Assembly: GCA_002774635.1 (NCBI GenBank) | Contig: PEXU01000004.1 | Span: 1 to 33,645 of the forward strand | DNA length: 33,645 bases | From: Candidatus Kerfeldbacteria bacterium CG08_land_8_20_14_0_20_40_16 | GTDB taxonomy: Bacteria > Patescibacteriota > Patescibacteriia > UM-FILTER-42-10 | Direction: 5' to 3' | Shown here: piece by piece, positions 16,446-19,631 of the stretch | How positions within the stretch are numbered: position 1 is the stretch's first letter | How the letters are laid out: each line of letters starts with the position of its first letter | Translations under genes and position numbers: made by a program | Notes under the pieces: generated by a model | What the model was told of the DNA's origin: nothing | Database searches by the model: none | The model's input: only the letters and a program-made list of their open reading frames with translations

Positions 16446-17837
16446 TTAAGGGGCCCCTCTTCTTGACACTAAGGCAAAGGGAGTTCGGAAAATTAATTGT
16501 AAATCAAGCAATAAAGACCAGTTTTCAATATAGTAGACGTCCAGCGTTGCTTCTTCTTCAAAATTCAAATCTGACCTTCCTGAAACTTGAGCCATCCCGG
16601 TCATCCCCGGTTTGATGGTTAAAAGCTTCTTATGATCCTTCTGATACCGAGAAACTTCCTCCGGCTCATGTGGCCGGGGACCAACGACACTCATATCTCC
16701 TTTAATCACATTAAAAAATTGAGGGATTTCGTCAATGCTGGTTTTACGAAGAAATTTTCCAAAGCGGGTGATTCTGGGATCATTCTTCATTTTAAAAAGG
16801 GGGCCATCGGAACGTTCATTATAAGCAATTAGGTCTTTTTTCATCGCGTGCGCTCCTTCAATCATGGAACGAAACTTAAAAAACAGGAACTTTCTGCCTT
16901 TCTGGCCAACTCTTTCTAGTTTAACAAACACTGGTCCGGCCGAATCAAGTTTGATAATAACAGCAATAATGATGATAAAGGGTATTAAGATAATTAAGAT
17001 AAATACGGAAAAAATAATATCAAATGCTCTTTTAAAAATTTTTCCCCACCCATCAAGGGGAGTTTTTTTCATTTCGATAACCGGAATTCCGGCTAAAGGA
17101 GCGATTGCGATATTAGTGACTGAGGTTTCAAATAAATTAGCAACGTATTTAAAAGTAATGTGGTACTCATTACAGATATCAATTATTTTAAGTACCAGCT
17201 CTTTTTGGATATTAGGATCCGCTTGAATAACTTCGTCAATATTGGAATCTTTCAAACTCTCTTTCAGTTTTTGAATTTCGCTTTCGTTGACCTCTTTAAG
17301 CTGACCAACAATTTTATATCCCAGACCGGGATTATCATTGAGCTCATTGACTATTCGCCCGGTGGTGGCATCTTTTCCAACCACAAATACTCTATGGATT
17401 CCAATTCCCTTTTTCAGGAAATGTCTCTGAATGGAGCGAATAATGAACCGTTCGATACTGATAAAAATGATGCTTAATAACCAGCCGGAGATAATAATGA
17501 AACGAGAGGAAAATAACTCTCGCTGAAAAAAGATAAAGACGATAATGATTAAAACGGCGGTGGAACAGGCCAGAAATATCTTAGCTAACTCCTCAACCAT
17601 TCGCCGAGTAGTTTTGATGTTATATAATCCGCTCAACGCAAAAACAAAAATCCAAATAGAACTGGCGATCAATAGAATGGGAAGGAAATTTCTGAAGGAT
17701 AATTCATAAATCACCGGCCGGATATCAGTTAAAAAAGTTCCGAAACGCAAACCATGTGCTACTAATCCAGCTAAAAAAACAACCAAATAATCCAGAGGTA
17801 CCAATATGGCGCTAAAAGTTAGTTCTGATTTATTCAT
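16446..17837 (-). CDS. Undecaprenyl-phosphate sugar-phosphate transferase (WcaJ/ExoY-type PNPT)
   Basis: About 463 residues from the ATG at 17837 (MNKSELTF). The reading frame is open 29 codons further, but that would run into the RNase P RNA. Four N-terminal membrane helices are followed by a nucleotide-binding-like domain (RVFVVGKDATTGRIV), a re-entrant membrane helix (FDIIFSVFILIILIPF) and the catalytic bacterial sugar-transferase domain: KFRSM, DPRITRFGKFLRKTSIDEIPQ, NVIKGDMSVVGPRP and KPGMTGMAQVSGR. It moves a sugar phosphate onto undecaprenyl phosphate, the first step of the glycan made by this operon. A TATAAT ending 9 bases upstream suggests a leaderless mRNA. Confidence 0.93.
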   Translation of the reverse strand: MNKSELTFSAILVPLDYLVVFLAGLVAHGLRFGTFLTDIRPVIYELSFRNFLPILLIASSIWIFVFALSGLYNIKTTRRMVEELAKIFLACSTAVLIIIVFIFFQRELFSSRFIIISGWLLSIIFISIERFIIRSIQRHFLKKGIGIHRVFVVGKDATTGRIVNELNDNPGLGYKIVGQLKEVNESEIQKLKESLKDSNIDEVIQADPNIQKELVLKIIDICNEYHITFKYVANLFETSVTNIAIAPLAGIPVIEMKKTPLDGWGKIFKRAFDIIFSVFILIILIPFIIIIAVIIKLDSAGPVFVKLERVGQKGRKFLFFKFRSMIEGAHAMKKDLIAYNERSDGPLFKMKNDPRITRFGKFLRKTSIDEIPQFFNVIKGDMSVVGPRPHEPEEVSRYQKDHKKLLTIKPGMTGMAQVSGRSDLNFEEEATLDVYYIENWSLLLDLQLIFRTPFALVSRRGAP

Positions 17838-17846
17838 GTTAGGCAT

Positions 17847-17881
17847 TATAGTTAAATAGAGGTTAAAAAAAACCTCTATTT
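17847..17881 (-). promoter_or_regulatory. -10 box and hairpin between rnpB and the polysaccharide operon
   Basis: An 11-bp perfect stem AAATAGAGGTT/AACCTCTATTT (17854-17864 with 17871-17881) with a 6-base loop follows the RNase P RNA on the minus strand. TATAAT (17852-17847) comes next, 9 bases before the ATG at 17837 on the minus strand. No good -35 is visible. The hairpin may end the RNase P RNA, and the -10 box may start a leaderless operon transcript. Confidence 0.45.
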
Positions 17882-17917
17882 TGTGCCTTGAGTTTAGTCT
17901 ATAAGCCGAATTCTGTC

Positions 17918-18023
17918 CCCCCACACCATTTGTCGTAATGATTTTTGTAAGTCCTAGTGCGATTAGCTAAATTTGATTCCATTGTTCAAACTAACCAACC
18001 TATTTCGACAGATGGTGTGGGGG
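17918..18023 (-). other. RNase P RNA P19-position helix with an 84-base structured insert
   Basis: CCCCCACACCA (17918-17928) pairs perfectly with TGGTGTGGGGG (18013-18023), directly before the universal 3' segment. The interior can fold further: TGTCG/CGACA, GGTTAG/CTAATC and TTTGA/TCAAA. In model class A RNAs this position has no helix or a short one. Confidence 0.7.
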
Positions 18024-18412
18024 TGATGATTATCTATCTTGTCCCGCAGACGCGGGATCTAGCAATCAACCCATCCCGCGTTTGCGGGATCTATTTGATC
18101 TTGCACCGGATAGGGTTTTTCACTCCGCACTGTTACCAATGTAGAGAGAGGATTCTTAGGCCCTCACTTTTCACCCTTGTCCCGCTGATGCGGGACGGTA
18201 TTGTCTCTGTGACACTTTCCCTAGATTTCAAGATATTTAAAAACCTATAGGTACTTTTAAAGATCTTTCCATCCGGCCCGAGTTACAGGCTATCCATTCG
18301 ACTCGGTCCCGCTTTCGCGTGACCTCGCTCAGGACAAGTCCCCTTTCTAGAGGGCCTGCCCCGAGCGAGCCCCCGATAGGGGGTAAGTCGAGGGGTGTTC
18401 GGACTTTCCTCC

Positions 18413-18515
18413 CCTTCGACTCACTCCTCACTGCGTTCGTCGTTCGCTCAGGGCGACGCCCATTTGCGGGCTTGTCCTGAGCGAGCTTGACACGTAGTGA
18501 CAAGCGAGTCGAAGG
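18413..18515 (-). other. RNase P RNA P3-position hairpin, expanded
   Basis: CCTTCGACTC (18413-18422) pairs perfectly with GAGTCGAAGG (18506-18515). Inside are TCGCTCAGGG and CTTGTCCTGAGCGAG, a common mobile-palindrome motif that also appears at about 18329-18365 in the same RNA. The arm is 103 bases, about two to three times the usual P3. Confidence 0.7.
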
Positions 18516-18547
18516 AGTAATCATCCGACTAAACTTAAGGCAACTAT

Positions 18548-18575
18548 ATCGTAATATAAATCCAAAAATTGTCAA
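18548..18575 (-). promoter_or_regulatory. Promoter of rnpB
   Basis: A perfect TTGACA -35 (18575-18570) lies 16 bases from TACGAT (18553-18548), a weaker -10. The start would fall at about 18541-18544, which agrees with the beginning of the P1 helix at 18542. Confidence 0.6.
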
Positions 18576-19221: not shown

Positions 19222-19631
19222 GCCTTGGTGTATTGATCCAAACACAAATTAACTTGACTATCAGCTAGTTTATTTTTTTCTCTGGGAATGTAATTATATT
19301 CAATTGATTTAAAACTCTGTCCGGTATTCCAGATTTTTACAAACAGTGCTGCCAGCCCTGAATCTTTAATTTTGTACTTGCGGTTGAGTTGCTGAACCAC
19401 TATTTCACTATCTAAATGTAGTTTTAAAGTTGTCCCTTTTAACTGTCGAGCTTTTTCTAAAGCAAAGATTACTGCTTGATACTCCGCTTGATTATTGGTG
19501 GTTTCTCCGAGAAATTTGGAGTATTTACCGATTAACTTTCCTTGTTCATTAAAAATCACTACTCCCGCAGCTGCGGGACCAGGATTACCTCTCGCTCCTC
19601 CATCAGTATATATTTTTAGCAAGCTTTTCAT
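19218..19631 (-). CDS. rnhA: Ribonuclease HI
   Basis: 137 residues. It cuts the RNA strand of RNA-DNA hybrids in the cytoplasm using two metal ions. The acidic active-site residues are in place: Asp10 in IYTDGGARGNPGPAAAG, Glu50 in NNQAEYQAV, Asp74 in LHLDSEIVV and Asp124 in LADSQVN. It is slightly shorter than E. coli RNase HI and lacks a clear basic handle, as in many compact bacterial forms. The spermidine-synthase-like gene stop is 1 base upstream, so it ends that operon. Its last 58 bases are duplicated at 18661-18718. Confidence 0.95.
   Translation of the reverse strand: MKSLLKIYTDGGARGNPGPAAAGVVIFNEQGKLIGKYSKFLGETTNNQAEYQAVIFALEKARQLKGTTLKLHLDSEIVVQQLNRKYKIKDSGLAALFVKIWNTGQSFKSIEYNYIPREKNKLADSQVNLCLDQYTKA

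Follow-up and report, generated by a model that had tools for sequence, protein, structure and literature searches.

Palindromic hairpins at peripheral helix ends of an enlarged RNase P RNA in a Kerfeldbacteria-related Patescibacteria genome

Palindromic Repeats and RNase P RNA

RNase P RNA, the ancient ribozyme that trims transfer RNAs, has peripheral helices that serve as class markers. STRR sequences have been reported in the rnpB gene of heterocyst-forming cyanobacteria (Vioque 1997). Like the hairpins considered here, these are reportedly genome-wide short repeats in a peripheral rnpB helix, but they are tandem heptanucleotides in one region of the RNA, whereas the present elements are palindromes. 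With regard to REP sequences and their RAYT transposases, the likeness lies in short, GC-rich, mostly intergenic palindromes and in the presence of RAYT-family transposases in the genome; unlike REPs, the TCCCGC palindrome described below was found without the conserved 5' tetranucleotide or a transposase-flanking copy. REPs are not known to occur in rnpB helices.

In Rickettsia, the genes of M1 RNA and tmRNA contain RPE palindromes (Ogata et al. 2002, reviewed in PMC2229807). They too are interspersed palindromic repeats within an RNase P RNA gene and are presumed neutral, but they measure 105–146 bp, compared with 16–18 nt for the interspersed element here, which furthermore recurs in several helices of the same rnpB and at a 16S helix tip. 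The diverged RNase P RNAs of the CPR, the bacterial group that includes the present genome, show low Rfam scores and extended or missing helices, and need manual refolding (Lui et al. 2021, PMC8172020); however, that study traces no extensions to repeats, and its example is an extended P15. The literature searched, to which most subscription journals did not belong, contained no report tying CPR rnpB extensions to repeats. What is new in the present case is how far this goes: a single RNA has several helices affected, with exchange between congeners, elements in common with 16S rRNA, and recurrence in other families. We read this as the tolerance of short palindromic REP-like elements at helix tips.

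Gene Identity and Conserved Core

The window is the whole stretch of DNA analysed, 33,645 nucleotides of contig PEXU01000004.1 from Candidatus Kerfeldbacteria bacterium CG08_land_8_20_14_0_20_40_16 (GCA_002774635.1). On its minus strand, the Rfam model of class A RNase P RNA (RF00010) matches positions 18342–17886 with 108.8 bits, against a gathering threshold of 100, and an E value of 1.2e-32. The alignment to this model, proposed as a check in a preliminary description of the locus, found the RNA and misplaced its 5' third: it starts too late, model positions 1–50 being fitted onto the arm that separates P5 from P7, and it misses the conserved GAGGAAAGUCCG of J3/4 and the 5' strand of P4 (18400–18411, minus strand). 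The preliminary description had placed J3/4 (18411–18400) and P1 correctly where the Rfam alignment had not. The gene extends over about 17891–18541 (minus strand), with its 5' end near 18541 and the 3' strand of P1 stopping at 17891, and measures about 650 nt, close to the 660 nt first estimated. It gives the single RF00010 match in the 1.13 Mb of the genome (62 contigs, about 96% complete); a second, normal rnpB, which would have spoken against the preliminary description, was searched for in this assembly and not found.

Two relatives served for comparison, one of the same genus (Candidatus Kerfeldbacteria bacterium CG_4_10_14_0_8_um_filter_42_10, hereafter G001; rnpB on contig PFMD01000047.1) and one of the same family (Patescibacteria group bacterium, hereafter G002; rnpB on contig JAHJEX010000078.1). 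A predicted sigma-70-like promoter, TTGACA-16 nt-TACGAT, lies just upstream of the gene (18548–18575, minus strand). As it ends at 18548 and has counterparts at an equal place in both relatives (TTGACA-16-TACTAT and TTGACA-16-TATGAT), the transcript would be about 650 nt long. The downstream gene, the same in all three genomes, codes for a sugar transferase family protein (ORF 16446–17924), the start codon of which is probably nearer 17840 than the ORF limit. All three genomes also possess rnpA, the gene of the RNase P protein.

The 5' strand of P1, AGUUUAGUC (18527–18535, minus strand), forms nine Watson-Crick pairs with GACUAAACU (17891–17899), and in G002 the P1 sequence is changed on both sides with pairing kept. 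P2 forms eight pairs between 18518–18525 (minus strand) and 18025–18032. Pairing is canonical throughout P1, P2, P4, P5 and P7, and P4 and P5 display both-sided base changes with respect to the E. coli sequence. The universal boxes GAGGAAAGUCCG, ACAGA.A, GGGUGAAA, GCAAG..CAAAUAG and ACAGAA..CGGCUUA follow each other in order, which, together with the pairing strands, upholds the earlier view that the universal class A segments are present and the gene is real. The type A arrangement of P6, P16 and P17 is not found: P16 is a simple hairpin, P17 and P6 are absent, and P5 is separated from P7 by an arm. Loss of P16/P17 is common among CPR RNase P RNAs (PMC8172020). P4, P5, P7 and the conserved joining regions are free of palindromes, and the picture of an intact, enlarged class A RNA with palindromic hairpins only in peripheral helices is supported. 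Judging from these sequence features, the RNA is presumably active. With a probability of roughly 60%, we consider this Kerfeldbacteria-related Patescibacteria genome to have here its functional and only rnpB, with an untouched core and with peripheral helix ends that have been replaced or extended by palindromic elements.

Size of the Peripheral Helices

The rnpB of E. coli is about 377 nt long; as excised, the gene measures 653 nt here, 719 nt in G001 and 451 nt in G002. Two core segments are nearly constant in the three genomes (in the same order, 72, 72 and 73 nt for P7–P10, and 61 nt each for P13–P14), and the variation resides in the 5' part of P3 (125, 126 and 48 nt), the P5/P7 arm (116, 78 and 87 nt), P11–P12 (45, 131 and 45 nt), P15–P18 (78, 101 and 75 nt) and P2-P19-J19/4 (138, 138 and 50 nt). 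Net growth relative to G002 is confined to P3 (+77), the P5/P7 arm (+29) and P19 (+88). P12 and the P16/P17 region, taken to be enlarged in the preliminary description, have the size seen in G002 (45 nt in both; 78 vs 75 nt), and since the P12, P16 and P18 segments match the lengths of this relative, the palindromes there represent a replacement and not an enlargement.

While the core is conserved, the same helices carry unrelated hairpins of other lengths in G001 and G002. In G001, P3 carries a 17-bp CUCCCACACC stem and P12 another long nested hairpin, and the P5/P7 arm of G002 contains a CUCCUCACACC stem. The rnpB insert GCCTTCGCTGAAGCTTCGGCAGG of G001 has no repeat in its own genome, so that interspersed repeats do not account for all rnpB inserts.

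The size of the present rnpB is not unique within the class. The segment from J3/4 to P4 ranges from 302 to 620 nt among 39 parsed rnpBs, namely the window gene and class relatives (parsing was incomplete for 12 of 51 loci, and the P1 assignments made automatically in L010 and L035 were left out for their implausible 5' parts of about 305 nt), and the window gene (510 nt) ranks eighth. Two of the largest, L048 and L047, come from other families. In the former, P3, P12 and P19 each bear a copy of one foldback element; 72 nt are identical between the P12 and P19 copies, and diverged relatives of the element lie elsewhere in the genome. In the latter, P3 and P19 both contain a 114-nt element that is nearly the same in the two helices, two blocks (29 and 47 nt) being identical; a search of 180 kb of that genome did not find this element.

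The TCCCGC Palindrome Family

Genome pattern searches revealed 31 exact copies of TCCCGC-N4-GCGGGA and none of a reversed-pattern control; with loops of 1–28 nt, the palindrome occurs 43 times, compared with 6 for the control. Related genomes contain between 0 and 20 TCCCGC palindromes. The window holds 12 with up to two mismatches, where 0.74 would be expected. Three of the 31 exact copies are situated in rnpB, against 0.018 expected by length (P about 9e-7, a value that treats sites as independent and ignores the hairpin richness of RNA genes). They form the stem-loops of P12 (GUCCCGCAUCAGCGGGAC; 18179–18196), P16 (AUCCCGCAAACGCGGGAU; 18073–18090) and P18 (AUCCCGCGUCUGCGGGAC; 18041–18058), all on the minus strand, the last replacing the usual GNRA-capped hairpin. 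These three tetraloop hairpins share an identical loop-closing 6-bp stem, which is also that of the perfect GC-rich hairpin found most often in the window. As the P16 and P18 palindromes are identical, they could pair with each other, an arrangement that a simple fold favours by about 5 kcal/mol over the native form.

The flanks of the remaining copies place them mostly between genes, several near tRNA genes or tRNA-like fragments, and one in 16S helix 6, the tip of which is a perfect TCCCGC palindrome (L066 1000–1017, contig C4). The family thus resembles REPs in having many copies (31 exact), most of them intergenic or in RNA genes and hence mainly outside protein genes; a search with a longer pattern of REP type (GAGYGAGYTTGTC...) gave no match. 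Several of the rnpB inserts had been taken for repeats present elsewhere in the window, and TCCCGC alone qualifies as such a family. One of the 31 copies, a 16-nt palindrome at 19563–19578, is inside an RNase H reading frame and probably a coding coincidence. Downstream of a tRNA gene, at 1636–1830 of the window, TCCCGC palindromes are interleaved with repeated tRNA 3' ends (CGGCTCCA).

Elements of P3, the P5/P7 Arm and P19

The enlarged P3 arm (about 110 nt; 18409–18517, minus strand) is built of nested palindromes, UUCGACUC../..GAGUCGAA and CUCGCUCAGGACAAG../..CCUGAGCGA. The extra arm between P5 and P7, at the position of P5.1 in type B RNAs (18296–18393, minus strand), comprises three hairpins closed by UCGACU/AGUCGA. 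It is also the actual site of the TCGCTCGGGG/CCTGAGCGA stem, earlier assigned to the P8–P10 region, and its inner hairpin GUCACGCGAAAGCGGGAC (18306–18323, minus strand) is an imperfect TCCCGC palindrome with one mismatch, at 18307–18322. P3 and this arm have in common the outer UCGACU/AGUCGA stem and a 15-nt match, CTCGCTCAGGACAAG (BLAST E 2.7e-5), of which the genome contains one further copy, with one mismatch. An AT-rich extended hairpin after P8 (P9/P10 region; 18224–18275, minus strand) is conserved in sequence within the genus.

The enlarged P19 (17918–18023, minus strand) has a stem, CCCCCACACCAUCUGUCG/CGACAAAUGGUGUGGGGG, with 17 of 18 positions paired and a loop of about 70 nt, and this stem is also present in P19 of G001. 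Its 11-mer CCCCACACCAT occurs in the present genome in the two P19 arms and nowhere else, in G001 in P19 only, and in G002 only in both arms of 16S helix 6, the rnpB P19 of the latter being devoid of the element. As it is confined to P19 or 16S helix 6, it would be a structural-RNA-hairpin sequence of the family and not a general repeat. Three palindromes CCCCACACCAT-N3-ATGGTGTGGGG were also noticed in a genome of another family (G025, contigs C1 and C2).

Origin of the Hairpins

In the mechanism that we propose, short self-complementary DNA elements would have replaced or extended the ends of P3, the P5/P7 arm, P12, P16, P18 and P19. A palindrome at a helix tip may fold as a coaxial continuation of the helix and would therefore be tolerated there, while it would be lethal in the core. 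The TCCCGC-N4-GCGGGA family, interspersed in this genome, would be the source of the P12, P16 and P18 tips, and the other elements are common to several rnpB helices, or to rnpB and 16S rRNA, within the family. What is observed is an intact core, hairpins located at tips, sequences in common, and hairpins that differ among relatives, including P12, P16 and P18 tips that differ between species. We infer that the elements arrived by copying at the DNA level, possibly via REP-associated tyrosine transposases of the genome. About seven Y1_Tnp genes are present, and the two Y1 transposases examined both score above the cut-off of the NCBI REP-associated tyrosine transposase model, which makes a REP-type mechanism possible. 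The near flanks of the seven Y1_Tnp loci carry other palindromes, none of them a perfect TCCCGC hairpin, and at these loci the family lacks the copies flanking a cognate transposase gene by which REPs are also recognised. No target duplication marking a direct insertion was seen; the one comparison of a candidate empty and filled site, a tRNA-like locus with and without a palindrome between two congeners, likewise displays none.

The TCCCGC stems have just 6–7 bp, with variable loops, so that a single shared stem carries little weight: with ten random 12-bp stems, any two share a 6-mer 66% of the time. This statistic being uninformative, only longer matches or three-fold sharing were used. Since the elements of P3, the P5/P7 arm and P19 are not interspersed in this genome, just two origins would fit them: copying from one structural RNA gene to another, or older decay.

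Ordinary divergence, in which peripheral helices of Patescibacteria rnpB differ without constraint, stable stems rich in GC are preferred and hairpins resemble one another through convergence or chance, is possible, though we regard it as doubtful. It would agree with the wide range of core lengths in the class (302–620 nt), with the extended helices on record for this bacterial group (PMC8172020), with the ease with which two random stems share 6-mers, and with P18 of G002, which is likewise a CCCCGCC/GGCGGGG stem. It accounts poorly, however, for three tetraloop hairpins sharing the 6-bp stem of the window's most frequent perfect GC-rich hairpin, for the 15-nt match between P3 and the P5/P7 arm, and for the identical blocks between helices in L048 (72 nt) and L047 (47 nt). 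Quite improbable is the view that the stems are functional sites for a dsRNA-binding protein or nuclease, and hence kept in rnpB and 16S rRNA: the restriction of CCCCACACCAT to rnpB P19 in two species and 16S helix 6 in a third, instead of scattered sites, would suit it, but elements switch helix between species (P3, the P5/P7 arm or P19), the element is missing from P19 of the same-family rnpB, and no protein has been identified. That rnpB is decaying while another RNase P does its work is hardly credible; the large insertions and the alternative P16–P18 pairing would agree with it, but core, promoter and rnpA are conserved in three genomes, and the genome yielded no second rnpB.

The insertion of palindromic elements at helix ends could be taken further. 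Palindromes might preferentially colonise the hairpin tips of structural RNAs (rnpB, 16S rRNA and tRNA-like loci), perhaps via a Y1 transposase acting on single-stranded DNA hairpins, and RNase III might then cut the long, perfect stems of P3 and P19, so that RNase P RNA would work as several pieces; we hold this extension to be unlikely. With regard to its wider meaning, insertion at helix ends would make peripheral helix exchange visible between close relatives, with genome repeat families as raw material, and would offer structured RNAs a simple way of acquiring domains. Repeat-built helices would also account in part for the low Rfam scores that rnpB genes of Patescibacteria obtain, and would provide natural insertion maps of ribozyme tolerance.

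16S rRNA and tRNA-Like Loci

The tip of 16S helix 6 is ATCCCGCGCAAGCGGGA in the present genome and in G001, and a 45-nt CCCCCACACC palindrome in G002, in which the helix reads CCCCCACACCATTACTG...CAGTAATGGTGTGGGGG. Behind the 16S rRNA gene, an orthologous tRNA-like locus reads TCCCGA-TTCCCGCCTCAGCGGGACA-TCGGGA here, vs TCCCGA-CCGCAGCG-TCGGGA in G001; this pair is the pattern that would be expected after insertion of a palindrome at a hairpin tip.

At the same locus (L067 962–1090 here; L088 3717–3836 in G001), nested hairpins are located on the 5' side in both congeners. ARAGORN predicts a tRNA-Ile in G001 and makes no call in the present genome, where the locus may be a broken tRNA copy. Between tRNA-Leu and tRNA-Val, at about 960–1090 of L070, tRNA-like pieces are interrupted by palindromes. 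16S helix 10 (L066, about 1105–1122) contains an imperfect TCCCGC palindrome, TCCCGCATATGCGGAA, which G001 does not have. In the 16S rRNA gene of G001 (L088 2054–2294), the 530 loop contains about 310 nt of inserted sequence that match a group I intron weakly, with 30.3 bits, less than the gathering score; the 3' part of this gene harbours an extension of about 70–80 nt near the tip of helix 44.
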